This document shows, in pieces, positions 7,330 through 53,543 of a stretch of DNA of 64,000 nt. A program made the position numbers and the translations under genes. Positions within the stretch are counted from its first letter, which is position 1. The number at the start of each line of letters is the position of its first letter. The DNA comes from Aurantibacillus circumpalustris (lineage in GTDB: Bacteria; Bacteroidota; Bacteroidia; B-17B0; Aurantibacillaceae), in contig NZ_CP121197.1 of the NCBI RefSeq assembly GCF_029625215.1, positions 310,001-374,000 of the forward strand, read 5' to 3'. The notes below the pieces were generated by a model, which saw only the letters and a program-made list of their open reading frames with translations, searched no databases and was not told the origin of the DNA.

Positions 7330-7510
7330 GATCTATTTTAAGATAAAAGCAAGTAAAAGTAGGCTAATTTATTTAAATACAAAACTTTAAGGCTATATAA
7401 AATGCCCTTAAACTCAATAATTTATCATCTGAATGTCAATTTTTTATCGATGAACAAATTCTGATTTTTTATTTTCTGTGCCCTAAATTGGCAACGATTG
7501 AATTTTAGTA

Positions 7511-7549
7511 AAAAAACGAACCCCTCTGTTAGAAATAACAAAGGGGTTC
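7511..7549 (-). terminator. Rho-independent terminator of T9SS paralog 2
   Basis: A 14-nt stem with one mismatch (7518-7531 and 7536-7549, GAACCCCT...AGGGGTTC) with a GAAA loop lies 29 bp past the end of the minus-strand gene. It is followed on the minus strand by T6 at 7516-7511. Confidence 0.78.
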
Positions 7550-7577
7550 AAAATGTATTCATGGCTAGTTTCGCGTT

Positions 7578-25973: not shown

Positions 25974-27800
25974 TCATTCCTTGTACAACTTTGGAATGTT
26001 ATTTACAATTTTTATAACGCGTTCAAAATCCAGTCCTAATGTATCGAGGTACCATCTTATGTTTTGATAACGCGGTTGATTTTCATCTTCCACTAACTCT
26101 AAGGCTTTTTCTCTGGTTATTTGACCTTCACGAATTTGGTTACTACGAAAGGTATCGTGTTCCGTAAATCCTGCAACGGTATAATACACATAATTATAAA
26201 AAGCTGCTGTGCCATCGCCAATTCTCCAGGTGGTGCTAGTATCTACCGCAAGCTCCCATCCATATTGATTAATCAAAGTGTCATTCACTTGCTCCTCATC
26301 CCAACGCCAGTAATCAAAGATGTGATAGTAGTCTTTCTTTTTATTAAAGCTTCTGTAGTACTCGCCAGATAAAGTATCCCAAAGTGAGGAATTAAAATAT
26401 CCCGGACTATCCATCATGGCACGAAACCGCTTCGCATGGTAACGCAATTGTTTCATAGCGCCATGGCTATATACACGATCTTCTTCAAAATCAGGTTTAA
26501 TGCCTAAGAAACCTGTTTTAAAATGTGTCACTTCCAATGGATTGATGCCCCATAAATTCAAATCGATGCCTGTTTGTTTCTTCATTTCTTCTGCATAACG
26601 AAAGAAGTGTTTATCACCGGCGGTTAACATTGCCATCATACCCAAGTTGGGCGATTTTAGCCATGCTTCCAAATTCATCCGAATGTTTTTACGTTTTAAA
26701 GAAATGTCTGCGGCTACAATAATATTCTCGACGCCGAGCTCGGCGCACATCCTACTGATATTCCTTCTGCCCAAATCTGTCACCATTCCCCAATCATAGG
26801 TATAGGTCACCGGCCGAAGCTTTAGTTCTTTCACGATTAAATGCAAACCAAAACAACTATCTCTTCCACCTGAAAATGGAACGATGCATTCTAATCCACT
26901 TTTTTTTCTGTAAGGTTCAAGTATTTTGAATAATTCTTCTTTCGGTTTAGGTGTGTTACGAAGTTTATAGTTATGACAATAGTTACAAACTCCTTGTTCG
27001 TCAAAACGAATGTATGGCATCGTTTCAGGAAGGATACATTTTGTGCAACGCTTCAAATGAAGTTTTTTGTATTCCAATAATGCTTCCTGAGATTTATTAA
27101 AAACAAATTCAGGTATTAGGTTCTCGGTGCGAACTTTAAAATCATCCAAATTCCATTTTAAATTTTTTGGTACAGGAACATCTAAAACTTTATAGGATTG
27201 ATGGATCTGGGAAATAGCCTCACAGCCTATCTCCGTTAAAGCATATTTTTCAGAAGCAAAATAAGTAGCACCTGCTTTAGTTCCAGTATAAAGACTACCA
27301 TTATTTGAGATTAAAATAATTTTGCCAAGGTTCTGAATCAGGATGGCGCAGGAAACAACTCCCACACATTTTTTCATAATCACGGCTGCCAAATCATCAA
27401 TAGAAAAACCATTTTTAAGATGTTCAATAGTAATGCCAGCTATCACCTCTGTATCAATTTGATGCTTTCTTTCTACCGCAAGAGTTTTCCATATCTCTTC
27501 ATCGTTAACAATGATCCCATTGTGCAACACAAAAACATCTTCCCTCACTACCGGTTGATTATCAGCAAGCCCATTTGTAATCAAGCGGCTATGCCCCAAA
27601 ACAATTCGCGAATGATAGGGCTTGATTTTATTCAACAGCTTGTCAATATTGTAATCAGCTCTATAAATCTGGTAACGATCGTCTTTAGTAAAAATCAAGC
27701 CACTAGAATCTTTCCCTCTTTGCTGTGCATGTTTTGCCAGCAATTTCAAGTCTTTTTTATTAACCGCTTCAGAAGCTATAATGCCAAATATTCCGCACAT
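25974..27800 (-). CDS. Class II glutaminase fused to N-acetyl sugar amidotransferase
   Basis: A 608-residue two-domain enzyme. Residues 1-225 are an Ntn (class II) glutaminase: MCGIFG gives the Cys2 nucleophile, with LGHSRLIT and LHNGII following. Residues 250-608 are an N-acetyl sugar amidotransferase of the PseA/WbpG type: a CxxC-CxxC zinc knuckle (Cys252, 255, 272, 275) and an ATP-pyrophosphatase loop PFSGGRDS (308-315). WbpG-type enzymes turn an acetamido group into an acetamidino group with ammonia that HisH/HisF-like partners supply. Here the glutaminase is built in and no hisH/hisF homolog is nearby. It lies between asnB and a GT4. It probably makes an amidinated sugar, possibly from a ManNAc-type substrate. 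Confidence 0.85.
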   Translation of the reverse strand: MCGIFGIIASEAVNKKDLKLLAKHAQQRGKDSSGLIFTKDDRYQIYRADYNIDKLLNKIKPYHSRIVLGHSRLITNGLADNQPVVREDVFVLHNGIIVNDEEIWKTLAVERKHQIDTEVIAGITIEHLKNGFSIDDLAAVIMKKCVGVVSCAILIQNLGKIILISNNGSLYTGTKAGATYFASEKYALTEIGCEAISQIHQSYKVLDVPVPKNLKWNLDDFKVRTENLIPEFVFNKSQEALLEYKKLHLKRCTKCILPETMPYIRFDEQGVCNYCHNYKLRNTPKPKEELFKILEPYRKKSGLECIVPFSGGRDSCFGLHLIVKELKLRPVTYTYDWGMVTDLGRRNISRMCAELGVENIIVAADISLKRKNIRMNLEAWLKSPNLGMMAMLTAGDKHFFRYAEEMKKQTGIDLNLWGINPLEVTHFKTGFLGIKPDFEEDRVYSHGAMKQLRYHAKRFRAMMDSPGYFNSSLWDTLSGEYYRSFNKKKDYYHIFDYWRWDEEQVNDTLINQYGWELAVDTSTTWRIGDGTAAFYNYVYYTVAGFTEHDTFRSNQIREGQITREKALELVEDENQPRYQNIRWYLDTLGLDFERVIKIVNNIPKLYKE

Positions 27801-27853: not shown

Positions 27854-29719
27854 TTATCTTTTTACGATTCCATTTACTTTAAACCAGGCTCCTAAAGTGT
27901 AGTTCCTGTATTTACTATAGGAAGGTGTTCTGGTTCCCAATACAGTTTTATTATATTCAAGATACTCTTCAAAATCTTTGCCATAGCGCCCCAGCCAAAC
28001 CTCTTCAGGCGTCGTAAAACCCTTTTTATCTTTTCTGTATCTTATTTGTTGAGGCATCTCCACCATGGCTTCACGAAGGATGTTTTTTTGCCAACCATCT
28101 TTTATTAAAAAATTATTCGGCAAAGAATAACCGAACTCCACCAGCCTGTAATCCATAAAGGGATGACGCGATTCCATACTAAATGCCATACTATTTCTGT
28201 CATCTACCCTTAAGTACATGGGCAACTGATAGGTGTCGAAATCTTTAAGCATGATTTCATCCAGGCTATCTATTCTATTCCAATGCTTCTGAAGATGATG
28301 GTCGAATTTTTTAATTCCAGCTTTCATAAGAGCCGATAATTTAAGCTCATTAAAAACTATTTTATGTACTTTATTTTTTTCAATTTGTTTAATCGTAGAA
28401 TATTGCGCGATCAAGGAGAAATATTCCGGCAGTTTTCCTTTCACTAATAATTGCCGGCAGTATTTGTAAAAGTGATGATGATATCCACCAAACACTTCAT
28501 CCGCACCCTGGCCGTTAAAAAGTATTTTAATACCTGACTTGCTAGCCTTTTCATAAACACCCCACTGTGCGAGAAATGAGGTGTCAATTAAAGGTTCTTC
28601 CTGATGATAAACATGCTTTTCAAATTCAGGTATATTAAAGTCATTCATGACCTCCGCATAAATAGTTTTACAGGGAAGATCATTCGCGACAATTTTCACA
28701 TATTCAGATTCGTCTGCTTCCTTATATCCCGGAAAAACAGCAGAAAAACCAAGAAGTTCATTTTTTTTATTCTCAGATTTTAAAATATTCCTCGCAGAAT
28801 ATAAAATAGCACTTGAGTCGAGCCCGCCTGAAAGGGCAAAGCCAAAATCTACGTCGGCACGCATTCTTATTTTAACGGCATCATTCAGCAATTCTCTAAA
28901 CTGCATTATTGCTGCATCGTGCTCAATTCTGATTTTTGATTGACTGATTTGATAGTAACGGACTTGGTGTTTATGCAGAAAATTTTTAGCATACTCATTC
29001 ACATTCCATAAAAAATAATGCGATCCTTTGAATCTGAAAACGTCCTGGTAAATAGTGTTTTCATTGTGATCTACATAGCCAAAATCGGCAAAATCTTTAA
29101 TGTGTTCCTCATTTAGTTTTAATTCTATAGACCGGAACGCCTGTAGTTGTTTAGTTTCAGAAACGAGTACAAAACCATCTGCATTCTCCTTATAGTATAA
29201 GGGTTTCACACCAAAGCGATCGTTACTTATAAAAAGTTTTTTATGGATGGCATCCCAGAGACAAATGCTCCACATCCCATTGAATTTGTTCAGGCAATCT
29301 TTGCCCCAAATACGATACGCTTCTAAAATAACTTCTGTGTCAGAAGCGGTTTTAAAATTACATCCCAATAGTTTCAATTCTGCCCTTAGCTCAATGTAAT
29401 TATATATTTCACCATTAAAAACAATCCAAGAACCTTCCTTTCCTTCCATTGGTTGATGACCTGCCGGACTTAAATCTATAATACTTAGTCGTTTGTGCCC
29501 CAGAGCGAGATCAAATTTTTCTACTTCCTGATTGAACGGATTATTTATTCCTTCAATTTGAGAATAAGTAATTTTGTATTCTCCCGTATTAGTATTAATA
29601 AGCACTATTCCCTCATCATCAGGGCCGCGATGATTAATCTTTTGAAGAGATTCTATAAAATTAGTGTAGAGTTCTCTTGTTATATAGTTTTTATTAAATA
29701 ATATTGATATTCCACACAT
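27854..29719 (-). CDS. asnB: Asparagine synthase (glutamine-hydrolysing)-like amidotransferase
   Basis: A 621-residue AsnB-family protein: Ntn glutaminase (MCGIS with Cys2, NHRGPDDEG, FNGEIYNY) plus an ATP-pyrophosphatase synthetase domain (FALSGGLDSSAI, FNGQGADEVFGGY). In the housekeeping role it makes asparagine. In polysaccharide loci such paralogs are often presumed to amidate uronic acids or amino-acid substituents, which I consider more likely here. A 110-bp gap separates it from the SGNH gene upstream; 53 bp follow before the next glutaminase fusion. A second AsnB homolog is at 46275-48173. Confidence 0.85.
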   Translation of the reverse strand: MCGISILFNKNYITRELYTNFIESLQKINHRGPDDEGIVLINTNTGEYKITYSQIEGINNPFNQEVEKFDLALGHKRLSIIDLSPAGHQPMEGKEGSWIVFNGEIYNYIELRAELKLLGCNFKTASDTEVILEAYRIWGKDCLNKFNGMWSICLWDAIHKKLFISNDRFGVKPLYYKENADGFVLVSETKQLQAFRSIELKLNEEHIKDFADFGYVDHNENTIYQDVFRFKGSHYFLWNVNEYAKNFLHKHQVRYYQISQSKIRIEHDAAIMQFRELLNDAVKIRMRADVDFGFALSGGLDSSAILYSARNILKSENKKNELLGFSAVFPGYKEADESEYVKIVANDLPCKTIYAEVMNDFNIPEFEKHVYHQEEPLIDTSFLAQWGVYEKASKSGIKILFNGQGADEVFGGYHHHFYKYCRQLLVKGKLPEYFSLIAQYSTIKQIEKNKVHKIVFNELKLSALMKAGIKKFDHHLQKHWNRIDSLDEIMLKDFDTYQLPMYLRVDDRNSMAFSMESRHPFMDYRLVEFGYSLPNNFLIKDGWQKNILREAMVEMPQQIRYRKDKKGFTTPEEVWLGRYGKDFEEYLEYNKTVLGTRTPSYSKYRNYTLGAWFKVNGIVKR

Positions 29720-29829
29720 AGTAACTAAAAATACGTTTGGTTATGAACTTAATTTATATTCATAAACAAAATCTGCAGCTTGATTTTGAACAAAGAAATT
29801 ATTAATGGTAGAATGTAAAAACACTTTCA

Positions 29830-30795
29830 CTATTTTGATTCCTCTTTATTTAAGAGCTTGTCTTTAACTAATTTATTTATCAGCTGTTTATTGAAAATTT
29901 CAACTCCAGCCTGATTCAAATGTGAATTATCATAAAAATGATATGCTGTATTTATTGAATCACACTTACCATAGTCATAAAATATTATGTTGCTTTTGCG
30001 GATATTTTGTTTTAATAAATTAATAAATGGCTTGTGTATTTTGTAATTATCGAAATAAGAAACGGGTGAATAAACCAAGACAACCTTGATATTTTTCATT
30101 CTACACAAATCAACAATGTTTTTAAAATACTCCATTTGCTCCTCATCTATTTCAATTTTCTCATCATGTAATTTAATCTTTGCAAAATATTGTTCTTGCT
30201 TTTGCAAACTCATACTGTCTGGATTCATAGAATAGCCTTTCCCTGTATAATCTGCATTTTGATAATAAGAATTATCAGATTCAGTAAGTAGTCTCAGCGA
30301 TGCCATATTCATGGTTCTGACATCGCTATTATTTAACGCAATATCGCATGCCGCATTTTTGCTTTCAATGTTTTCTATTAGATCTGATGTGGACTCCAAG
30401 TCACTTTTAGCAAAAGATCCTGCAAAAACATCTATTAATAATAGTTTGCAATTTGTTGAATTTATGTAATGTTTTATTACAAAATATGTGTTTTTTATTG
30501 ATTGAGCCGACGTACCTAAATTAAAAGCTTTATAACCAGCGGATTCAAAAATAAATGGCGAATACCCTCTGTAAGCTCTTGATGAGCCAACAAAAACAAT
30601 ATCATAATTCTTAATACCATTCTTAAACTCTTGATACTTATTATACGTATCTCCACCTTTCCAGGTATAGTATTCATTTGTAATATAAATGATCGGCTTA
30701 CCTTTATATTTGATGTTTTTAAGTGTCACCATTCCAATAACATATAAACCGAAAATGGTTAATAGTGATACAAAAAGATGTTTAATGATAATCAT
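29830..30795 (-). CDS. Membrane-anchored SGNH-like protein (DltD/AlgX-like position)
   Basis: A 321-residue protein with one N-terminal membrane segment (about residues 5-25) and an extracytoplasmic SGNH-hydrolase-like domain. Block I is VFVGSSRAYRG (Ser at 71/72) and block V is DNSHLN (Asp289, His292), giving a Ser-Asp-His triad. Such proteins partner MBOAT acyltransferases (AlgJ/X with AlgI, DltD with DltB). Its start overlaps the MBOAT stop by one base, so the two are coupled. Likely role: completing transfer of an acyl or aminoacyl group to the exported glycan. Base composition looks more AT-rich than the flanking genes. Confidence 0.72.
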   Translation of the reverse strand: MIIIKHLFVSLLTIFGLYVIGMVTLKNIKYKGKPIIYITNEYYTWKGGDTYNKYQEFKNGIKNYDIVFVGSSRAYRGYSPFIFESAGYKAFNLGTSAQSIKNTYFVIKHYINSTNCKLLLIDVFAGSFAKSDLESTSDLIENIESKNAACDIALNNSDVRTMNMASLRLLTESDNSYYQNADYTGKGYSMNPDSMSLQKQEQYFAKIKLHDEKIEIDEEQMEYFKNIVDLCRMKNIKVVLVYSPVSYFDNYKIHKPFINLLKQNIRKSNIIFYDYGKCDSINTAYHFYDNSHLNQAGVEIFNKQLINKLVKDKLLNKEESK

Positions 30796-32234
30796 TAAAA
30801 TTGAAAATAAATAAAATCAACCTTGCCAAAGGTTCCAAATAGTATAATAAATACAATTAATAGAGATGTGATCATTGTTAGAACAAATGATTTTCTATTT
30901 TGTAATTTTACCATAGTTGAAAATAATTTATCTGTTAAAATAAAAAATAATAACAGGAGTAATGAAAATGCAAACTTAATTCCACCAAAATGCATCACAA
31001 AGATTTTAATTGCGGCTACATCGCTAAAAGTTGTGAATTGTTTCCTAATCAGAAGAAACGCATCTTCAGTAGACTCCGCTCTAAAAAAAACAAATGATAA
31101 TAATGTAAATCCAAACGTTAATAACCAACTAAAGGTATTGTATAAAAATGGATTAAATGTTTTTGACCATAATTGCCGTTTTTCTCTGGTAAGCATTTCA
31201 TAGGTTAAAGCTAATCCTTGTATAATGCCAAATAAAACAAATGTGAATTTTGCACCATGCCACAAACCACAAATAAAAAACGTTAAGAAAATTGCATAAA
31301 CTGTAGCCCCTTTTTTCCACTTCCTTTTACTGAATTGAAGAGGTGTATACATGTAATCTCTTAGCCATGCGGATAAGGACATGTGCCATCTCCTCCAAAA
31401 CTCAGTAACATTCTTACTTATAAATGGGAAATCGAAATTTTCTGCCAACTTAAAACCAAAAAACCTTGCAACGCCAATTGCCATATCTGTATAGGCAGAA
31501 AAATCTGTATATAATTGAAAAGCAAATAAAAATGTTCCTAACCATAATACCGAACCTGGATAGTGCGAAATATTACTATAAATATCATTTACATAAACAT
31601 CCAACCTATCCGCAATGACTATTTTTTTAAATAGGCCCCACACAAATCGCTGAATACCATATCCTATATTATCCCATGAAAATTTTTGAGGTGTGTGAAT
31701 CTGCGGAAATAACTCACTAGATCGACCAATTGGACCAGATAATATTTGAGGAAAAAAACTAACAAATAATGCAAAATAGCCCAAATGTTTTTCGGGTTTT
31801 CGCAAACCAAAAAATACATCTAAACTATAGCCAATGCTTTGAAAAGTGTAAAACGAGATCCCAATAGGCAATAGTAATTTTAAAGGGGGAATTTTAAGAC
31901 CGAATGATAACAAATTTGCTAGTTGCGAATATATATCTGTAAAAAAACCTAAATACTTAAATACAATTAAAATTCCCAAATTAACAACCATAGCCGAATA
32001 AAGAAATACCCGCTTTTTCACCATTACTTTTTTATACTCGTCCATTTTAATAGCTGAGTAATAAGTTATGGAAATAGTTAAGGCTAATAGTATTAAATAA
32101 GTTGGCTTTTCCCAACCATAAAATACTAAACTAGCGCACAGCAATACAACCCACCTAAAATTAATAGGAGTTACTAACCAACTAAGGAAAACTACACTAA
32201 AATAAAATAAAAAATCGAAGGAATTAAAAAGCAT
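30795..32234 (-). CDS. MBOAT-family O-acyltransferase (AlgI/DltB-like)
   Basis: A 479-residue polytopic protein of the membrane-bound O-acyltransferase family. The conserved PIGISFYTFQSIGY and FPQILSGPIGR segments, NVTEFWRRWHMSLS and the catalytic-His region CGLWHGAKFTF all match AlgI/DltB proteins. The family moves an acyl group from a carrier across the membrane. The gene is 6 bp from a carrier-protein gene upstream and overlaps an SGNH gene downstream, so its acyl donor is probably the adjacent carrier rather than acetyl-CoA. AT-rich. Confidence 0.9.
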   Translation of the reverse strand: MLFNSFDFLFYFSVVFLSWLVTPINFRWVVLLCASLVFYGWEKPTYLILLALTISITYYSAIKMDEYKKVMVKKRVFLYSAMVVNLGILIVFKYLGFFTDIYSQLANLLSFGLKIPPLKLLLPIGISFYTFQSIGYSLDVFFGLRKPEKHLGYFALFVSFFPQILSGPIGRSSELFPQIHTPQKFSWDNIGYGIQRFVWGLFKKIVIADRLDVYVNDIYSNISHYPGSVLWLGTFLFAFQLYTDFSAYTDMAIGVARFFGFKLAENFDFPFISKNVTEFWRRWHMSLSAWLRDYMYTPLQFSKRKWKKGATVYAIFLTFFICGLWHGAKFTFVLFGIIQGLALTYEMLTREKRQLWSKTFNPFLYNTFSWLLTFGFTLLSFVFFRAESTEDAFLLIRKQFTTFSDVAAIKIFVMHFGGIKFAFSLLLLLFFILTDKLFSTMVKLQNRKSFVLTMITSLLIVFIILFGTFGKVDFIYFQF

Positions 32235-32240
32235 TAACTA

Positions 32241-32480
32241 TTAATCTTCAATTTTTCGTTGTATTAAGTCTAATAAATCACCTACATTTTTCAAGCCCAT
32301 TACATCAAAACCTGTAATTTCTATTGCAAACGCTTCTTCAACAGCTGTAATCAAATCCAGGTGTGTAATCGAGTCCCACTGATCTATATCAGAAGCATTT
32401 GTACTATCAGTAATTTCGATTGCATCGTTTTTAAAAACACTTCTAAATACTTGAGTCAATTTTTCGTGATGTTGTTTCAT
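32241..32480 (-). CDS. Acyl/peptidyl carrier protein
   Basis: A 79-residue acidic carrier protein. WDSITHLDL places the phosphopantetheine attachment Ser at residue 37, and the surrounding helices and length fit ACP/PCP/DltC. It is predicted to hold the unit activated by the adenylating enzyme two genes upstream and present it to the MBOAT protein. It is separated from the GNAT gene by 2 bp and from the MBOAT gene by 6 bp. Confidence 0.9.
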   Translation of the reverse strand: MKQHHEKLTQVFRSVFKNDAIEITDSTNASDIDQWDSITHLDLITAVEEAFAIEITGFDVMGLKNVGDLLDLIQRKIED

Positions 32481-32482
32481 AA

Positions 32483-33109
32483 CTATTTTATATTTTTTAT
32501 CATTAATACTTTTCCATTACCGCTATCGGCGTTACTCAACATTTCAGCAGATATCTTATACCCAGATTTTTCATACACTTTAACGGCTCCATCATTTTTT
32601 TTCCAAACCTGAATTTGTATTTCGTTTAATTGAGAGTTGTGTGCAATTTTTTCAGTTTCTGCGAGTAATTGTTTTAATATTCCTTTACCTCTATATTCTG
32701 GCAAAGTGGCTACACAATCTATTTGCAGTGTATTTATTTTTTTTTGAATGCTTATATCTGAATGGTTTTTTAAAAAACCAAACGCTAATGCTACACTTTT
32801 TCTATCAAAACCTGTCATTAAAGCGCCTGTCATTAAATGATTAGAATCTCCAAACTCTCCTTCTTTATATACTGAAATTGCTGAAACTGGCACATTATCT
32901 ATACAGGCAATTAGATATGATTTATATGTAAGTGGATGCCCGTCTGTTTCATTATTTATAATTTTTTCAAAGTAAGATAAAAGTTCATCATTTGTTTTAC
33001 TAAACATTTTAGTATATGATGTGATTTCAAAACCTGTTGATTCTGCTAACAAAATAATTTTGGCTATAAAATTACAATCGTTCGAATTCGCTTTTCTTAT
33101 AGTTATCAT
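32483..33109 (-). CDS. GNAT-family N-acetyltransferase
   Basis: A 208-residue acetyltransferase fold. IDCVATLPEYRGKGILKQLL is the GNAT acetyl-CoA (motif A) loop, here with the R/Q-x-x-G-x-G/A form RGKGIL, followed by VWKKNDGAVKVYEKSGYK (motif B region). The start directly abuts the stop of the adenylating enzyme (no gap). In this position it might N-acylate an amino-acid substituent before or after loading, or act on an amino sugar; the substrate cannot be told from sequence. Confidence 0.85.
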   Translation of the reverse strand: MITIRKANSNDCNFIAKIILLAESTGFEITSYTKMFSKTNDELLSYFEKIINNETDGHPLTYKSYLIACIDNVPVSAISVYKEGEFGDSNHLMTGALMTGFDRKSVALAFGFLKNHSDISIQKKINTLQIDCVATLPEYRGKGILKQLLAETEKIAHNSQLNEIQIQVWKKNDGAVKVYEKSGYKISAEMLSNADSGNGKVLMIKNIK

Positions 33110-34588
33110 TTAGCTTAAATAAATTTTATGCAATAATTGTTTGTCTATTTTTCCACTAGTATTTACCGGCAAAGGATTAACGGCAATGAAATGGCGAGGA
33201 ATCATATAAAAAGGCAGTGAATTTTTCAAATTGTTTACCAAATCATCTTGTTCAAACTTCCCTTCGATTAATGCATACAAATCGGTATACTCATCAGTAA
33301 TTTTTGCCAACACCACTATACTATCTAATCCACTTGCTTGCTTAATTGCATGTTCAACTTCTCCCAACTCAACTCTAAATCCATTAACTTGTACCTGATT
33401 ATCTTTTCGATTAATGTATACAACATTTTTGTTTTTGTTTTTCACAACTATATCTCCTGTTTTATACCATTTCTTTTCATTGCTGTCAATATAAAACGCT
33501 TGAGCTGTTTTTTCTGAATTATTCCAATAACCTTTAAAAATCTGGTCGCCTTCTACAATCAATTCACCTCTTTCTCCATCAATAACATCTTCGTTCTTTT
33601 CATTAATTATTCTAAAATTTATGCCGCTTAAGCCTTCTCCAATTGGGCATAAACCATTAATCGTTTGATTTTCAGTATTTTCATCTAACTTATAAAACAA
33701 ACACCAAACAGTCGTTTCAGTTGGACCATAGGCATTTTCTACGACAGAATTTTCTGCCGATTTCTGCCATTCGATTGCTAATTTAAGGGGTAATGCTTCA
33801 CCTGTAAATAACGTGGTGTGTACACTTGGTATTTTAATAGAACCTAACATTTTTAATTTTTTCAAATAAAAAATAGCTGAAGGAGGAATTGTAACAAATG
33901 TTGCTTTATACTCATAAATAGCTTTAAACGAATTTACAGCTACAATGCCATCCATATCGGGGACTAACAAAGCGGCTCCGCGTTCCCAAGCCATAAAAGT
34001 ACAAGCTAATGAAACATCAAAAGATAATTCGAAAGCTTGCAGAACTATATCCGTTTCATTGATTTTAAATCTTTTATCTAATGCTTTAATTAATGCAGAA
34101 AAATTTCTATTGGTGATTGATATGCCTTTAGGAATTCCAGTACTACCAGAAGTAAACAAGATGTAAACTATTTGACTTTCATTAAACTCGTATTGATGCG
34201 ATTGATTGTTATAATTTAAATCGTCAACAGGTAATGATGCATTTTCTTGTAACTCATTAACTCTTTCTAATGAATGATTAGAGTGTAGAATAGTTTTAAT
34301 ACCTGCATCGTTTATCATTTTTTTTAATCGATCATTTGGAAATTTATGATTGAGTGGTACAAATCCTTTATTAGATAATAAAATAGCAATTAGTGAAGCA
34401 TAAGTGTTTTCATTATTATCTGTGTACAGGCCAATCAAATTTGTCTCACTTTTATCTTTAACGATTAACTCCTGGGCTATTGAGATGGCCTTGTTTAATA
34501 TCCATTGATAAGTAAACTTTTTTCCATTTATAATGATGGCTGTGTGGTTTGGGAATTTTAGCGCTGATTTGAAAAAACCTGTTAACAT
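33110..34588 (-). CDS. AMP-forming adenylating enzyme (amino acid adenylation, DltA-like)
   Basis: A 492-residue stand-alone adenylation domain. Core motifs are intact: A3 ILFTSGSTGIPKG, A5 NAYGPTETTVW, A7 WYKTGDIV, A8 RKDNQVQVNGFRVELGEVE and A10 NTSGKIDKQ with its catalytic Lys. The size and domain order are those of DltA and single-module NRPS adenylation enzymes. It would activate an amino acid or small carboxylic acid as AMP ester and load it on the downstream carrier. It is the first gene of the five-gene cassette, 72 bp after a GT4 gene. The substrate is unknown; the binding pocket (FDVSLACTF helix) needs modelling. Confidence 0.88.
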   Translation of the reverse strand: MLTGFFKSALKFPNHTAIIINGKKFTYQWILNKAISIAQELIVKDKSETNLIGLYTDNNENTYASLIAILLSNKGFVPLNHKFPNDRLKKMINDAGIKTILHSNHSLERVNELQENASLPVDDLNYNNQSHQYEFNESQIVYILFTSGSTGIPKGISITNRNFSALIKALDKRFKINETDIVLQAFELSFDVSLACTFMAWERGAALLVPDMDGIVAVNSFKAIYEYKATFVTIPPSAIFYLKKLKMLGSIKIPSVHTTLFTGEALPLKLAIEWQKSAENSVVENAYGPTETTVWCLFYKLDENTENQTINGLCPIGEGLSGINFRIINEKNEDVIDGERGELIVEGDQIFKGYWNNSEKTAQAFYIDSNEKKWYKTGDIVVKNKNKNVVYINRKDNQVQVNGFRVELGEVEHAIKQASGLDSIVVLAKITDEYTDLYALIEGKFEQDDLVNNLKNSLPFYMIPRHFIAVNPLPVNTSGKIDKQLLHKIYLS

Positions 34589-34660
34589 GATTCTTTTTGT
34601 AATTATTAAGCTTAGTTATTTTGCGTTATTTAAATTTCTTGCTCGTTTTAATATTATCGA

Positions 34661-35899
34661 CTAGTTTGCACTAATTTGAGAACAAAACACCTTATAGTTA
34701 TCTTCCGCATTAAAATTATTTTCCCAAAAAATACGAACACCGATTCGGAATTGCTCAGTATTTTTATCAGATCCAATAAAATCTTCGATTTGTTTTGCAA
34801 CTGCAATTGCTTTAAAATCTTTTTCAATTAAAATACCTGTTTGATTAGTTACAATTTCTTTACATCCCCCAACATCAGTGGATAATATAGGTATACCAAA
34901 ACTAATGGCTTCAATCATTGAAAAAGGAAGGCCTTCTGAACGACTCAAACTCAAAAAAAGGTTAACAGGATTCTCCTCATAATATTTAAAAACTTCTTTA
35001 GATGATAAACTCCCTGTAAAACAACAGGTAATATTCGGTGGTAATTGCTCTGCTTTTCTTTTAATCATTCCTAACCCTTCACCTCCCCCAATCAAAGTCC
35101 ATTTAATTTTAAAGTCAGCTTTAACGTTTGCCAAGATATCGCAAACCAAATCTAATCGTTTAATTTCGCTAACATGGGCGCAACTAACAATGTGAAAAAC
35201 ATCACCATTCATTTGATTTAAACTACTATTTTGAAATCCCAAATAAGAAAATTCTATTTTTTTTTTGTACCCGCTATAAGATTTTTTTAAATAGTGCATC
35301 CCCATTTGCGAAACAGCATATACCTTTTTAACCCCTGCTAACATAAATCTCTTGAAAGGGTGGTAACCAAATTGGGTTTGGTCCTTAAATATTTCGAAGC
35401 CATGAGCTCTTGAAACAAATTTTAAGGTTTTATAATTTTTATCCTCTTTAATAATAGATAATATAATTGCCCAACGATCAAACCAATAAGAGTAAAATAC
35501 CACATTGTCATATGGAATATCATTTAAATAATTTTTTAATATATCTGCGCGATACGCTTGTTGTAAAAAATCAACGGATAAATTTCTGAATTGCTTTATG
35601 GATAAAATTGGGTTATGCATTAATTCATTAAACATAACCTTAGCAAACAAAAATAAATTCTGTTTCAAGCTATTTAAAGAGTTATAATTTTTAAAATGAT
35701 TTTCAAATAAATAAACTGTCTTTACATTACTTGGCATTTTTTTAGTTTCAAATTTTCCAGACGGCTTTTCTGAGGGAAAAATTACTACTTCCTCAAAATA
35801 TTCTGATAAGAATTTAATTTCGCCTTCTATAAATACTTCACTTTCTCCATAAGGAAAATTTTGAGTGAACAAATAACACGTTTTCTTTGAGTTATTCAT
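34661..35899 (-). CDS. Glycosyltransferase, GT4 family
   Basis: A 412-residue GT-B transferase. The ATG at 35899 is preferred over a TTG two codons upstream. Features include a C-terminal donor domain with WTLIGGGEGLGMIK, CCFTGSLSSKEVFKYY and SLSRSEGLPFSMIEAISFGIPILSTDVGG, which is the classic GT4 E-x7-E signature. It overlaps the GT39-like gene by 8 bp. It probably adds one sugar of the repeat unit. Strongly AT-rich like the downstream cassette. Confidence 0.9.
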   Translation of the reverse strand: MNNSKKTCYLFTQNFPYGESEVFIEGEIKFLSEYFEEVVIFPSEKPSGKFETKKMPSNVKTVYLFENHFKNYNSLNSLKQNLFLFAKVMFNELMHNPILSIKQFRNLSVDFLQQAYRADILKNYLNDIPYDNVVFYSYWFDRWAIILSIIKEDKNYKTLKFVSRAHGFEIFKDQTQFGYHPFKRFMLAGVKKVYAVSQMGMHYLKKSYSGYKKKIEFSYLGFQNSSLNQMNGDVFHIVSCAHVSEIKRLDLVCDILANVKADFKIKWTLIGGGEGLGMIKRKAEQLPPNITCCFTGSLSSKEVFKYYEENPVNLFLSLSRSEGLPFSMIEAISFGIPILSTDVGGCKEIVTNQTGILIEKDFKAIAVAKQIEDFIGSDKNTEQFRIGVRIFWENNFNAEDNYKVFCSQISAN

Positions 35900-37460
35900 G
35901 CACAACTTTGTAAATTCTAACTTTTCCGAATACTGTATCCAAAAAAACCGTTTTATTTAATTGCAAACGCATCAGTGAATCTCCCTTCCCCTCCATTTCA
36001 TCTTTTAAACTTCCATGTCTCCGAATACTGGTTTCAAAATTCTTCAGATAAGTTAGGATATAATCGGCCTTTTCCTTTTCAATAGTCGCGGGGTTTATAA
36101 AGTCTATCCAGCTGATCTTTTGTTTCAAATCTTCGTAAGGATACGTGTCAGAAAAAGGATGGTATCTGCCTGTTTGTAAAAAGTCCTTGTAGGGATACCA
36201 AACGGATATGTCTTGAACAGCTACAAATGTTTCACTTTTATTTTTGAGATAGTTATGCGCTTTAGAAGAATTGACTACAATCTCTGTTGATTGTTCAGAC
36301 AAGTCCTTTAAGCTTATAATTCGTGAAATTGAAAACAAGCTGGTTATGAAAAAACAGGTCAGAATAAATATTTTAGAAACATTTATCCGTTTGGTTGGTA
36401 AAATGTCCTCGTCAAGAAATGTCAGTAAGCCCAAAGCCATAAATATAAAACCGGTCCAAAGATAATGAGGCCACATACGCTTTGTAAGAAGAATGACGGG
36501 TAACAAAAAGCAAAAACCAATTAATAATACAATAAGTGATGAGGAGATTTTTTTTGTTTTAAAATAATTTATCGTTAGCAGCCCAATTAAAAAGAGAAAA
36601 AGGCAGAACATAATAAGGCCTAACAGCGTATTACCTCCATAGTATTTAAACAAACCATCTTTCAACCATTCTATAATCGTAGCTCCGGTATCATCATAAT
36701 GGCCTGTGTTTTTAAATGTAGATTTAATATACGTTTTTAGAAAAACGGGTTTGATTGGGCTTAATAATAAGGCAGGCATCGCAATTAATAATCCGGCTAA
36801 AAAATAGAAAGCAGAAACCAGTCCTGTTTTAAATTTAAATTGTCCGTTAAAAGCCGGAAGTAAAAAAAATAGCGGCAAGATCAGTAATACATTGAACTTC
36901 AAACCATAAGCCATTCCCAGAAAAATAAAATGTTTACCATAAGCCCAGTTGTTTTTTAAACTATAATATAAAAATACCGCTAACACAAAGAGTTGAAGAG
37001 GTTCCGGTTTCGGAATAATAATGAAATAAGCTGAATAATAAAGGCTTAATACTCCTAAATAAAAAAAGGCTCTGTTCAAACTATTTTTTAAAAATGTTCT
37101 TCCTAATAAACAAACCCCTAAAAAAAGAAACAAAACGTGCGTCATACGGATACTAAACACCAATGCACTTATTCCCCAGATCTTATAAGGTAAAAAAGCA
37201 AAAAGCGCATCGGTATAGAACATCATCCTACCATAAAAATAGATGTCGCCTGCGACTAAACCCATAAAAAAATGTTTAAAAGAAGCAGGTTCAAGGATTG
37301 AAAACACCTCCCTTACTGTAAGATACTCATCATGACCTGAGAAAGTATAATTTACATTTGCGCCTTCTAAAAATTGCAGATTCAACATCACAGAATAACA
37401 CATCAACACAATAAATGCGATAGATTCAGTTGCGTATTTTTTGAAAAAACTATTAATCAT
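35892..37460 (-). CDS. GT-C (GT39-like) membrane glycosyltransferase
   Basis: A 522-residue protein with around ten to twelve hydrophobic segments and a C-terminal soluble domain. The first extracytoplasmic loop has GHDEYLTVREV, placing an Asp-Glu pair where GT-C enzymes keep their catalytic acidic residue. Such transferases use a polyprenyl-phosphate sugar on the outer membrane face. The next gene upstream is a DPM1-like GT2 that could make that donor, overlapping by 8 bp, so the two are a likely pair. Family placement is by topology and motif; sugar identity is unknown. Confidence 0.68.
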   Translation of the reverse strand: MINSFFKKYATESIAFIVLMCYSVMLNLQFLEGANVNYTFSGHDEYLTVREVFSILEPASFKHFFMGLVAGDIYFYGRMMFYTDALFAFLPYKIWGISALVFSIRMTHVLFLFLGVCLLGRTFLKNSLNRAFFYLGVLSLYYSAYFIIIPKPEPLQLFVLAVFLYYSLKNNWAYGKHFIFLGMAYGLKFNVLLILPLFFLLPAFNGQFKFKTGLVSAFYFLAGLLIAMPALLLSPIKPVFLKTYIKSTFKNTGHYDDTGATIIEWLKDGLFKYYGGNTLLGLIMFCLFLFLIGLLTINYFKTKKISSSLIVLLIGFCFLLPVILLTKRMWPHYLWTGFIFMALGLLTFLDEDILPTKRINVSKIFILTCFFITSLFSISRIISLKDLSEQSTEIVVNSSKAHNYLKNKSETFVAVQDISVWYPYKDFLQTGRYHPFSDTYPYEDLKQKISWIDFINPATIEKEKADYILTYLKNFETSIRRHGSLKDEMEGKGDSLMRLQLNKTVFLDTVFGKVRIYKVVHE

Positions 37461-40807: not shown

Positions 40808-42901
40808 TTAATTCGCCTTTATGCGGCTGAAAACAATGTATATGGTAAAAAGTTGCAAAATACCTTCGTAGTCTTCTTTCCACTGCGCGTTGTAAACTCC
40901 CACCTCTTCTAACTCAGGAATAAGTTGGGAAGCCAAAATATCTAAAGCCTCGCTGTTGATATTACCTTTAAGTGTAAGTATTATCCTACTTTCGGTATAG
41001 TCAACGTTTATTTGAATTGTGTTAATTAATACGATTTTTTCGAGCAGCGCTTCCAGGTTTTCGTTGTTATTGAAACTCAATTTTAATCCTAGATCAGGCT
41101 CAATACTTAAGTCGTTTGGATCTAATGTATTCGTACTAAAAAAACTAACAATCATGTCAGCATTTTCAGACTGTGAGCGTATATACTTTAAAGAATCTTC
41201 TTCGCGCTTTTTTAACTGCTCAAGAACCTGTTCTGGCGCATATCCTCTTTTTGCAGCATCACGTTTTACCTTCCACCAAACACGAAGGTTTTCATCGGGC
41301 TCCATAAATATTTTTAAATCATACACATCCGAATGATTTTTTAAATAAAACGAATGAAGACCTTCAAAAATCAGTAGCTTATTTGATTTGATAAATTGAG
41401 GTAAAGTAAATTTACCTGTTGAGTGATCATAAAAACTTCTTTTAATTCCTTTTCCGGTTTTTAAACTTTTTGCCTGGCTCAAATCTTCGTGCAATTTATT
41501 CGCGCGTGGATCGAGGTGAGTAAAGTTGTTCCAGTTGTCATTACCCCTTTCCCACTTATGCATATCGTCACCGCGAATAACGCTTGTATTCTGTGTTTCG
41601 AAAATGGATAGGAGAGAATTGCTCAATGTAGATTTTCCCGCTGCGGAATCACCGCCTATACCAATTAAATAAGGTTGCGATAAAAATTTTGTTTGAATAT
41701 TATTATGAATGCCTTTTTTAAATACCAGATAAGCAATAAAGGTTAAAGTTGTTTGTAGAAGCGTAAAAGTAATATCCAGCGCTTTTGGATTTTTTAAGAA
41801 CGCGAAAGGAAGTTCATTTTCGCGGCCTCCTAAATTAAAAGCGATCAGGTAATCAGAATTTTGAACTAGCCCAAAATAAACAAAATAAAATATGTTGAGT
41901 AAAATTAACAACTGACGATCCTCTTTATCCTGCTTAATTGCAAAATAGATTAAGAAAGGAAAAATCCAATAGTACCATCCTTGCATTGGAGCAACCATTA
42001 GGGTTAAAGCCAAAAAGGTAAAGGTTAGAAAAAGGATTAATTGATCGCGATTTACAAATTTAAAATGCAGGTACCAGATAAGCAGTGAAAAATAAATTGC
42101 AGGAATAAAATAAATTTTAAGCGTACCATTAAACTGGTAAAATAAATCAAATACCTGCTGTTGAACAGGATTGTTGTAAACCATACTTATAAAAGCAGGA
42201 GAAAATAAATACGGCAAATTAATGAGAAAAACCACTACTCCAAAAAGTGCAAGCGGCAAAAGACCTTTTCGCCAGCTCATATTTTGCGTGCGCCATAAAT
42301 AAATACTATAAAAAGGAAACACCAAAACCATGTTCGTTTTGCAACCAATTGCAAAAGCAAGAAACAGAAAAGAAAGCACCCACTTTTGCTTAAATAGGAA
42401 ATACAGAGAAATAAATAAAACGGCAATTGGAAGAACATCTAACTGACCATGGAAATAATTAATATATATAAGTACAGGTGATAGCCAATACCACACCAAA
42501 ACCTCACGCATGCGTGTTTTAAGCCAGCGTATCAAAACAAATAGAATACACAGGTCTGCTAATAATAGAGGGATGCGATAAACAAAACTTTCAAATAAAT
42601 TTAGGACACCGTCCGTGGAACAAAACGGTGAGAAAATAATGCGAGGGATGCTAAACAACCACAACATCATAGGTGGATACGGAAATTCATTCCCTTTACC
42701 CTGCTCAATAAAATGCGCGTAAGGATTTTCGAAACCACTGCTTACAAAATACTCAACAAAAGGAGCAAATAAGTCTCTTAAATAAGCAGAGGCAAAAAAG
42801 AAGGACAAGAGTATCTTTATACTCAAACCTGCCCAAAACAATCTTGATTTCAACAAAGGGAGTTTGCTCCTACCTTGTTTATCGTTTAATAATGTAATCA
42901 C
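40808..42901 (-). CDS. Fusion: GT87-like membrane glycosyltransferase plus uridine kinase-like domain
   Basis: A 697-residue protein starting with GTG. Residues 1-395 form about ten membrane segments; the loop with FPYPPMMLW (about 73-81) is the GT87/PIG-M-like signature seen in polyprenyl-mannose-dependent enzymes. Residues 410-620 are a P-loop kinase of the uridine kinase/phosphoribulokinase type: GGDSAAGKST Walker A (416-425), RGDDMHKW, LIFEGLHSFYL, and a lid-like KRDAAKRGY. The C-terminal 80 residues are unassigned. The kinase half would sit in the cytoplasm. A kinase fused to a GT-C enzyme is unusual; it may phosphorylate a small alcohol, sugar or lipid precursor. Flanked by class II aldolase and HAD genes in one operon. 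Confidence 0.75.
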   Translation of the reverse strand: MITLLNDKQGRSKLPLLKSRLFWAGLSIKILLSFFFASAYLRDLFAPFVEYFVSSGFENPYAHFIEQGKGNEFPYPPMMLWLFSIPRIIFSPFCSTDGVLNLFESFVYRIPLLLADLCILFVLIRWLKTRMREVLVWYWLSPVLIYINYFHGQLDVLPIAVLFISLYFLFKQKWVLSFLFLAFAIGCKTNMVLVFPFYSIYLWRTQNMSWRKGLLPLALFGVVVFLINLPYLFSPAFISMVYNNPVQQQVFDLFYQFNGTLKIYFIPAIYFSLLIWYLHFKFVNRDQLILFLTFTFLALTLMVAPMQGWYYWIFPFLIYFAIKQDKEDRQLLILLNIFYFVYFGLVQNSDYLIAFNLGGRENELPFAFLKNPKALDITFTLLQTTLTFIAYLVFKKGIHNNIQTKFLSQPYLIGIGGDSAAGKSTLSNSLLSIFETQNTSVIRGDDMHKWERGNDNWNNFTHLDPRANKLHEDLSQAKSLKTGKGIKRSFYDHSTGKFTLPQFIKSNKLLIFEGLHSFYLKNHSDVYDLKIFMEPDENLRVWWKVKRDAAKRGYAPEQVLEQLKKREEDSLKYIRSQSENADMIVSFFSTNTLDPNDLSIEPDLGLKLSFNNNENLEALLEKIVLINTIQINVDYTESRIILTLKGNINSEALDILASQLIPELEEVGVYNAQWKEDYEGILQLFTIYIVFSRIKAN

Positions 42902-50317: not shown

Positions 50318-51610
<1,293 letters not shown>

Positions 51611-52691: not shown

Positions 52692-53543
52692 TTAAACCGT
52701 GTCCATAAAGGATTTTTCAACTCTGTGAAAAATAATCAATCCTACCACAAACAACACCACTGTAACACCAAAACTATATCCTAAATGCATCCAGTTAAAT
52801 TCTCCAACACCTAAAAACGCATATTTAAAAGTTTCAATAATACTGGTAACAGGATTGGCCAAAATAGCCCATCTGTATTTATCAGGAACAATAGAAAGTG
52901 GATAAACAATTGGAGATGCGTACATCATCAATTGCACTCCAAACACAACCAAAAATTTTAAGTCGCGGTATTTAGTCGTTAGGGAAGAAATAATGATCCC
53001 CAAACTTAAACCAAGAAAACCCATGAGTATAATCAAAAAAGGAACGAGTAATAGTGCTGATGTTGGATGAACAGAATCGGTGGTTACCAAATAAAAAATC
53101 CACAAAACAATGAATAGAAGAAACTGAACGCCCAATTTAATTAAGTTAGATACAACCACTGAAAGAGGGACAATCATCCGCGGAAAATAAACTTTCCCAA
53201 AAATATTCGCATTGGCTGTAAAGGTATCGGATGTTTTTGTGAGAGTGTCTGAGAAGTAAGCCCAAAGCGTCACCCCGCACATATAAAATAAAATTTGCGG
53301 CAAACCATCTGTTGAAATGTTAGCTAAGTTTCCAAATATTACCACGAACGTAAGTGAGGTAATAATTGGTTGAATGAAGAACCAAAGCGGGCCTAAAATG
53401 GTTTGTTTGTATAGCGCAACAAAATCACGGCGCACAAATAAAAATAGTAAATCACTGTACCGTAAGATTTCTCTTAGTTGTAGATCATACCATTTAGATT
53501 TGGGTTGGATGACGAGGTCCCAATTTTCTGTATCAGTGTTCAT
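52692..53543 (-). CDS. wzm: Polysaccharide ABC transporter permease Wzm
   Basis: Membrane half of the exporter: 283 residues, six hydrophobic segments, ABC2-type. The N-terminal cytoplasmic stretch has IQPKSKWYDLQLREI and YSDLLFLFVRRDFVALYKQTILGPLW, the signature preceding the first segment in Wzm/TagG/KpsM-like permeases. A short amphipathic loop near PIVYPLS follows a hydrophobic segment. It is 58 bp after upxY and is the first structural gene of the long minus-strand run. Confidence 0.92.
   Translation of the reverse strand: MNTDTENWDLVIQPKSKWYDLQLREILRYSDLLFLFVRRDFVALYKQTILGPLWFFIQPIITSLTFVVIFGNLANISTDGLPQILFYMCGVTLWAYFSDTLTKTSDTFTANANIFGKVYFPRMIVPLSVVVSNLIKLGVQFLLFIVLWIFYLVTTDSVHPTSALLLVPFLIILMGFLGLSLGIIISSLTTKYRDLKFLVVFGVQLMMYASPIVYPLSIVPDKYRWAILANPVTSIIETFKYAFLGVGEFNWMHLGYSFGVTVVLFVVGLIIFHRVEKSFMDTV

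Follow-up and report, generated by a model that had tools for sequence, protein, structure and literature searches.

How could a Gram-negative bacterium employ enzymes of the kind that place D-alanine on teichoic acids, and what would they attach to which polymer? The question is raised by five genes of Aurantibacillus circumpalustris, a member of the Bacteroidota whose genome is a single contig of 4.60 Mb (NZ_CP121197.1). They lie in a stretch of 64,000 nucleotides (positions 310,001 to 374,000 of the forward strand), here called the window, and encode a stand-alone adenylation enzyme (A), an N-acyltransferase of the GNAT family, a carrier protein, an acyltransferase of the MBOAT family, and an SGNH protein (Table 1). 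We propose, at a probability of about 0.58, that this cassette decorates the exported glycan of its locus with the ester of an N-acylated, most likely N-acetylated, amino acid, by a transfer resembling that of the Dlt system. A preliminary description of the same DNA had read the genes as the part list of Dlt plus an N-acetyltransferase. The likeness of the parts stands, while the identification with a Dlt operon does not: a scan around the cassette revealed no DltX, the MBOAT itself bears the shuttle motif, as PatA does, and BLASTP gives no match to DltD beyond chance.

Gene Content of the Cassette

All five open reading frames (ORFs) are intact, and the genes are adjacent and coupled as previously described, with 0 bases between A and GNAT, 2 between GNAT and carrier, 6 between carrier and MBOAT, and an overlap of 1 base between MBOAT and SGNH gene. 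Pfam matches A to AMP-binding (9e-54), the GNAT to Acetyltransf_1 (2e-11), the carrier to PP-binding (5e-7), and the acyltransferase to MBOAT (3e-22). The polysaccharide locus around them also encodes glycosyltransferases, a DegT aminotransferase, sugar epimerases, a Wzt_C ATPase, an ABC-2 permease, and a NusG-domain protein. Judged by these genes the setting is a Wzm/Wzt-type glycan locus, which bears out the earlier placement in a Gram-negative polysaccharide context.

Table 1. Cassette genes and selected neighbors, with positions counted from the first letter of the window.
Feature	Position	Strand	Length, basis, remarks
A, stand-alone amino-acid adenylation enzyme	33110..34588	minus	492 aa; ORF, Pfam, NCBIfam, model, pocket code DVATLTAVWK
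GNAT N-acyltransferase, probably acting on carrier-bound amino acid	32483..33109	minus	208 aa; ORF, Pfam, neighborhoods
Acyl/aminoacyl carrier protein, Ser37 in WDSxxH	32241..32480	minus	79 aa; ORF, Pfam, alignment
MBOAT acyltransferase, DltB homologue with fused C-terminal shuttle motif	30795..32234	minus	479 aa; ORF, Pfam, homology
FIYFQF (FxYxxF) acyl-shuttle codons, MBOAT C-terminus	30798..30815	minus	motif scan; function after PMC12148441 (accessible part)
SGNH protein, N-terminal hydrophobic helix, candidate triad S72/D289/H292	29830..30795	minus	321 aa; ORF, alignment, model
Context: Wzt-like ATPase with Wzt_C domain; ABC-2 permease	50318..51610; 52692..53543	minus	likely polymer exporter
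Context: adjoining glycosyltransferase of family GT4	34661..35905	minus	also AT-rich, GC 0.298

The Adenylation Enzyme and Its Carrier

NCBIfam gives A, among its best matches, TIGR01733 for the amino-acid adenylation domain (300 bits against a cut-off of 317) and a pair of DltA models (231 and 246 bits, cut-offs 560 and 476), all of them below the cut-off. The ten best Foldseek matches of its AlphaFold2 model, which has a mean predicted local distance difference test score (pLDDT) of 87.7, include VinM, ApnA A1, Thr1, EntF, AlmE (4oxi, rank 8), DltA, and GrsA. D191 and K480, which we take to be the equivalents of the amino-group Asp235 and the C-terminal Lys517 of GrsA, are present in all 55 A sequences compared, the window's included. 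Because the nearest models and structures are amino-acid adenylating enzymes and the amino-group Asp is kept, A is classed, on sequence and modeled fold, as an amino-acid adenylator and not a CoA ligase; the earlier claim of an intact stand-alone adenylating enzyme agrees with this. The identity of a CoA or fatty-acid ligase, considered as an alternative, was rejected on the NCBIfam matches, the conserved Asp, and the Foldseek matches. Outside the 55 rows, an A-like protein at locus L212 (2504-3937, E 1.4e-24) is without the Asp and has the code SYSATAMARK.

At the positions that we take to correspond to those of GrsA, the window enzyme and two close relatives have the pocket code DVATLTAVWK, and the enzyme of L063 has DVASFTAVWK. 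The remaining A enzymes linked to a GNAT mostly have DLMLLCVIFK or a code near to it. The single DltA compared, that of Latilactobacillus curvatus (from a Latilactobacillus plasmid), is 26% identical to A over 502 columns (E 3e-49) and has the code DLMVVCTVAK. The larger GNAT-linked group has four code positions and the Lys in common with this DltA, and the group of the window fewer. The pocket of the window enzyme is not of the DltA type, and D-alanine was dropped as a settled substrate since the pocket differs. The accessible part of PMC13231372 gives no pocket residues.

Ser37 of the carrier lies in a WDSxxH motif that all 12 carriers aligned have in common, and the family of phosphopantetheinyl transferases (PF01648) has two matches in the genome. 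By these signs the phosphopantetheine site is a usable one, as had been expected from the arm site. Two outcomes that the preliminary description would have counted as refuting it, a CoA or fatty-acid ligase in place of A and a carrier with no usable site, are therefore not borne out. A carrier profile gave no match to DltC of L. curvatus.

The MBOAT, Its Fused Shuttle Motif, and the SGNH Protein

The MBOAT and DltB are homologous (PDB match 3e-26; 28% identity to L. curvatus DltB, 2e-24), and GLWHGAKFTF of the MBOAT aligns with GFWHGITW of DltB, the region of the catalytic His; against TIGR04091 the MBOAT scores 164 bits (cut-off 375). It is 479 aa long, compared with 402 aa for DltB, and its C-terminus ends in FIYFQF. 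In the dlt locus of L. curvatus the counterpart FIYNEF ends a separate protein of 49 aa, DltX, and DltB is without the motif. A scan of positions 29001-35500 in six frames detected no second FxYxxF shortly before a stop codon, so that no DltX was found there. According to the accessible part of a recent article, it is the Tyr of the motif that bears the acyl group, in DltX as well as in PatA; PatA, an MBOAT with a fused motif, takes acetyl-CoA and acetylates its motif Tyr, and the acetylated peptide can be used by PatB (PMC12148441). The same text states that MBOAT/SGNH pathways other than Dlt have no similar carrier protein, since acyl-CoA is used (PMC12148441). The family described here is an apparent and recurring exception to that generalization as worded there, in that several families of Bacteroidota have fused-motif MBOATs whose neighbors are a carrier and an amino-acid adenylator.

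The ancestry of these MBOATs was examined in a quick tree of 59 rows, made without bootstrap, that held 27 cassette MBOATs and 32 MBOATs with no carrier in a short stretch around them (about 1.5 kb on each side), the latter being part of the MBOATs found. Eighteen of the 27 cassette rows, the window's among them, form one branch free of other rows (SH-aLRT, an approximate likelihood ratio support value, 99). This topology favors an ancient line of MBOATs supplied by carriers, within which parts were exchanged to some extent.

For the SGNH protein, Pfam returns only a sub-threshold match to DUF1574. The protein has an N-terminal hydrophobic helix, and S72, D289, and H292 are invariant in 8 of 8 aligned cassette SGNH proteins. 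A Foldseek search with its model gave DltD as the top match (9.8e-7), with PatB also among the matches; VIA-align Z scores were 16.6 for a designed scaffold, 14.4 for PatB, and 13.9 for DltD, over 242-251 residues. BLASTP against DltD of L. curvatus gave E 4.1, which is chance level, and the profile no match. On the model, the SGNH fold is secure and the placement in a subfamily is not. The two proteins thus show the features of an MBOAT-SGNH pair, namely the catalytic His region and FxYxxF in the one and the SGNH fold with a Ser/Asp/His triad in the other.

Recurrence of the Gene Order in Bacteroidota

With the window GNAT as query, close homologues were found in 2 of 150 relatives (71 and 74% identity), both of another genus in the same family. 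Both have the same five-gene order, with A cut by the contig end in one of them. Two loci with close relatives of the cassette continue after it (L034:12077-14763, L035:4426-7079) with an aminopeptidase-like protein with DUF4910/DUF2172 (tested with Pfam in L034 only) and an uncharacterized protein of 454-466 aa; the window has neither protein at this place.

A wider search used a profile of five GNATs on 395 genomes of the class. Matches occurred in 51 genomes, 32 of which had partial matches only and were left uncounted; the remaining 19 have a full-length GNAT, and in 12 it lies beside an A gene. One of these 12 loci is at a contig end, and all of the other 11 hold a carrier and an MBOAT ending in FxYxx[FY]. 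The alignment of the GNATs comprised 27 rows, the row of L064 being left out. The gene order recurs in genomes of several other Bacteroidota families, as the preliminary description had proposed to look for, and on these sequences the recurrence is more than chance; a one-off assembly of genes was rejected for this reason. Nor is an activating enzyme with a carrier beside an MBOAT, earlier held to be unusual for Gram-negatives, exceptional in the class. In a phylum-wide draw of 395 genomes, a GNAT at 1e-20 was found, besides the window's own, in only two, both outside the class. One of them has a tandem A-GNAT-A-GNAT-carrier arrangement (L212:4676-9360, genome G680), the other one A with four GNAT copies around the carrier (L211:7518-13848, genome G763). 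In one of the 11 class loci, GNAT and carrier form a single ORF of 299 aa directly after A and before the MBOAT (L036:1920-2819, genome G117).

The arrangement is not rigid. In four genomes (G102, G245, G231, G361) the MBOAT does not adjoin the carrier, and other proteins lie between or beside them; in the two tested (G102 and G231) these include GDSL/SGNH proteins, one with LysM. A cassette branch in which carrier and MBOAT are accompanied by GDSL/SGNH-type proteins, one of them LysM-bearing, was noticed in L037, L067, and L165 (and in L066 and L073 by position and length only). The LysM-bearing SGNH branch suggests, from its domains, a target associated with peptidoglycan.

Forty A loci were also picked by an A profile independently of the GNAT, with hits in the long frames of nonribosomal peptide synthetases left out. 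Ten of them (L120, L121, L122, L126, L128, L130, L131, L136, L137, L140) are A-carrier-MBOAT loci in which the GNAT profile finds nothing and the gap between A and carrier is at most 101 bases, and their pocket codes are mostly unlike those of the GNAT-linked enzymes. Three more (L124, L127, L142) have another protein of 245-262 aa between A and carrier, which Pfam matches to GNAT models in L127 and L142 and to nothing in L124. One locus (L117) is A-carrier-MBOAT with the GNAT elsewhere, and two (L123 and L135) show just A and a carrier. From these gene orders the A-carrier-MBOAT core is seen to exist as a unit without GNAT, and the predicted enzyme in the slot between A and carrier is usually a GNAT.

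Proposed Pathway and Competing Explanations

From the gene content, the intact motifs, the homologies, the fusion of the motif, the recurring order, and the coupling of A with GNAT, we infer every catalytic step of the pathway (loading, N-acetylation, and the relays over Tyr and Ser) as well as the acetyl donor, the ester acceptor, and the amino acid. An alpha-amino acid would be adenylated by A and loaded onto the phosphopantetheine of the carrier, where the GNAT would acetylate the amino group of the aminoacyl-S-carrier. At the cytoplasmic face, the MBOAT would then take the acyl group from the carrier onto the Tyr of its own C-terminal FIYFQF, from which it would pass to Ser72 of the membrane-anchored SGNH protein. 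Finally, once Wzm/Wzt has exported the glycan, this protein would esterify one of its hydroxyls in the periplasm. That the GNAT acts on the substituent, as the preliminary description had suggested, is supported because GNAT and carrier share one frame in L036, A and GNAT occur in tandem pairs in L212, and the two co-occur even when unlinked.

Several observations weigh against this pathway. Its main weakness is the substrate assigned to the GNAT, which we infer, and an enzyme of this family can also acetylate an amino sugar or a free amino acid. In 7 of the 19 genomes that have the GNAT, its gene is not linked to an A or carrier gene. In favor of the pathway, a related A is present elsewhere in all seven (E at most 2.3e-118), and compared with the 78 of 395 genomes that have an A at 1e-90, the co-occurrence has a hypergeometric p of 3e-6 for these seven and 6e-15 for all 19, values that ignore kinship (G133 and G314 are of the same genus) and take both 395-genome draws as identical. 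Six of the seven also have a strong match to the carrier, at 2e-24 or better; in the remaining one (G400) the match is weak (8e-7), stands beside a ketosynthase-like ORF, and may, from its surroundings, be an ordinary housekeeping acyl carrier protein. An MBOAT accompanies the carrier in two of the unlinked genomes, G327 (L117) and G163 (L165). In four others (G314, G133, G421, G260; carrier loci L166-L169) there is no MBOAT in 16 kb around the carrier; because of these four, the A-GNAT-carrier set may serve other ends too. Among the 40 A loci, 24 have no carrier or MBOAT in the stretch, including those of six unlinked-GNAT genomes. The A tree sets the four-row group of the window apart from the other GNAT-linked enzymes (it labels L124, L127, and L142 as GNAT-less, L119 is at a contig edge, and its count of five changes holds for these uncorrected labels). 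The code DVATLTAVWK corresponds to no specificity known to us. Nine of the 27 cassette MBOATs fall elsewhere in the MBOAT tree. Lastly, the model of the SGNH protein is modest (pLDDT 70.5, predicted template modeling score 0.67), and several SGNH esterases reach VIA-align Z scores of 15-15.6, above DltD at 13.9.

As an alternative, A, carrier, MBOAT, and SGNH protein would act as in Dlt and place an unmodified amino acid on the glycan as a free aminoacyl ester, while the GNAT would act elsewhere, on an amino sugar of the repeat or in a neighboring pathway. The ten GNAT-less loci, which leave no room between A and carrier, indicate that the core works without a GNAT; the DegT aminotransferase of the locus could make an amino sugar; and the GNAT is unlinked in 7 of 19 cases. 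We nonetheless consider this explanation unlikely, as it does not account for the position of the GNAT between A and carrier in several families, its shared reading frame with the carrier in L036, its repetition alongside A in L212, or its restriction, in the class sample, to genomes that encode a related A (19 of 19). Another possibility is that two pathways are neighbors here: a cytoplasmic enzyme would attach the N-acetyl-aminoacyl thioester made by A, GNAT, and carrier elsewhere, for example as an amide on an amino sugar, and MBOAT and SGNH protein would independently O-acetylate the polymer from acetyl-CoA. It is kept because PatA, with its fused motif, takes acetyl-CoA in the accessible text of PMC12148441 and because, in four genomes that encode GNAT, A, and a carrier, no MBOAT was seen next to the latter; a locus of Segatella copri with A, carrier, AAC(3)-family N-acetyltransferase, and racemase likewise lists no MBOAT, in a gene table that is incomplete. 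Against it stand the position of the MBOAT directly after the carrier in the window and in several other families and the branch of 18 carrier-linked MBOATs that contains none of the 32 no-carrier rows, and we judge it quite improbable. The lack of an assignment for the code DVATLTAVWK would also admit a hydroxy or fatty acid as the substrate of A, and an ordinary acyl group as the substituent. With the amino-group Asp in the window enzyme and all 55 A rows, amino-acid adenylators as nearest models and structures, and an N-acyltransferase partner that would find no amine, this is very hard to credit.

Should the GNAT act in the manner proposed, the substituent on the surface would be a neutral N-acetyl-aminoacyl ester, as opposed to the cationic D-alanyl ester of Dlt, and its role would therefore differ from charge masking. 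Tentatively, and with somewhat less than even confidence, the cassette may stand for a class of envelope modification in Bacteroidota, in which a carrier-fed MBOAT with a built-in acyl-Tyr shuttle decorates exported glycans with amino acids that a dedicated aminoacyl-carrier N-acetyltransferase has N-acetylated beforehand, while they were bound to the carrier, and the branches without GNAT or with LysM-SGNH proteins would deliver free aminoacyl groups or target sites associated with peptidoglycan. The steps of A, GNAT, and carrier are soluble and thus directly accessible in vitro.

Relation to Known Systems

Dlt and the cassette have in common an adenylating enzyme, a carrier, a DltB-homologous MBOAT, the FxYxxF Tyr shuttle motif, and an SGNH-fold protein with an N-terminal helix. 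They differ in that the window MBOAT bears the motif itself, which in Dlt is on a separate DltX; in the SGNH protein, which has no detectable sequence similarity to DltD; in A, with its low identity to DltA and its other pocket; in the extra GNAT; and in the Gram-negative glycan locus. In our proposal the cassette works like Dlt, yet it is no Dlt system, since it shows neither a motif-less DltB with separate DltX nor a DltA-type pocket, both of them defining features. A plain Dlt operon acquired from Gram-positives was rejected because no DltX turned up in the stretch scanned (29001-35500) and no sequence similarity to DltD and DltC was detectable, and on the grouping of the MBOAT with cassette MBOATs of the same class. 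With the PatA/PatB acetylation of cell-envelope polymers, the cassette shares an MBOAT with C-terminal FxYxxF and an SGNH partner; PatA uses acetyl-CoA, whereas an adenylator and a carrier adjoin the MBOAT in the window (PMC12148441, accessible part). In AlmEFG, which glycylates lipid A in Vibrio cholerae, the amino-acid adenylator AlmE loads the carrier AlmF, and AlmG moves glycine to lipid A; the part of the source at hand names no MBOAT, SGNH protein, or GNAT (PMC12930378). Among Gram-negative systems, AlmE/AlmF comes closest as a precedent for activating an amino acid and loading it onto a carrier.

Another variant occurs in Segatella copri DSM 18205, where a glycan locus (NZ_CP085933, L201, 107804-125237) has consecutive genes for A, a carrier, an N-acetyltransferase of the AAC(3) family, and an alanine racemase. 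It resembles the window in combining A and carrier with an N-acyltransferase in a Bacteroidota glycan locus, and differs in the acetyltransferase family and in showing no MBOAT among the features listed. The racemase suggests D-alanine, and by analogy aminoacyl decoration of Bacteroidota glycans may have more than one form. Genes of phosphonate and CDP-glycerol type are nearby.

N-acetylglycyl groups are found in Escherichia coli O121 and Shigella dysenteriae 7, and the Bordetella dra locus is also of note here. Searches of the open-licence literature in PubMed Central for N-acetylglycine or N-acetylalanine in O-antigens and for D-alanylation in Gram-negatives gave no description of the cassette. 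Searches there for an A-carrier-MBOAT system in Bacteroidetes likewise turned up no published account of the cassette, the accessible part of PMC9833829 included; this is weak evidence of novelty.

Base Composition and Neighboring Genes

The cassette has a GC content of 0.303 (single genes 0.29-0.317), compared with 0.351 for the window and 0.358 ± 0.028 for the 44 other coding sequences. The AT-richness noted earlier for the cassette and the next GT4 gene (0.298) is confirmed, but it is not unique to them, as four further coding sequences are at 0.308-0.316. Together with the patchy occurrence (2 of 150 relatives) it fits the horizontal transfer suggested at the time, as a matter of compatibility and not of proof.

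Outside the window, carriers of two unlinked-GNAT genomes (L166:7756-8001, L167:7586-7828) adjoin a conserved exported-looking protein of 358-364 aa, with A and GNAT elsewhere and no MBOAT within 16 kb. Within the window, the polysaccharide locus encodes a 697-aa protein (40808-42901) whose N-terminal half looks polytopic; a uridine kinase/phosphoribulokinase domain (PF00485) lies toward its C-terminus. A 608-aa protein (25974-27800) combines a glutamine amidotransferase domain with a part similar to WbuX-like N-acetyl sugar amidotransferases (below cut-off). Two long proteins of 877 and 874 aa, encoded side by side at 4696-10202, are by eye closely alike in sequence.

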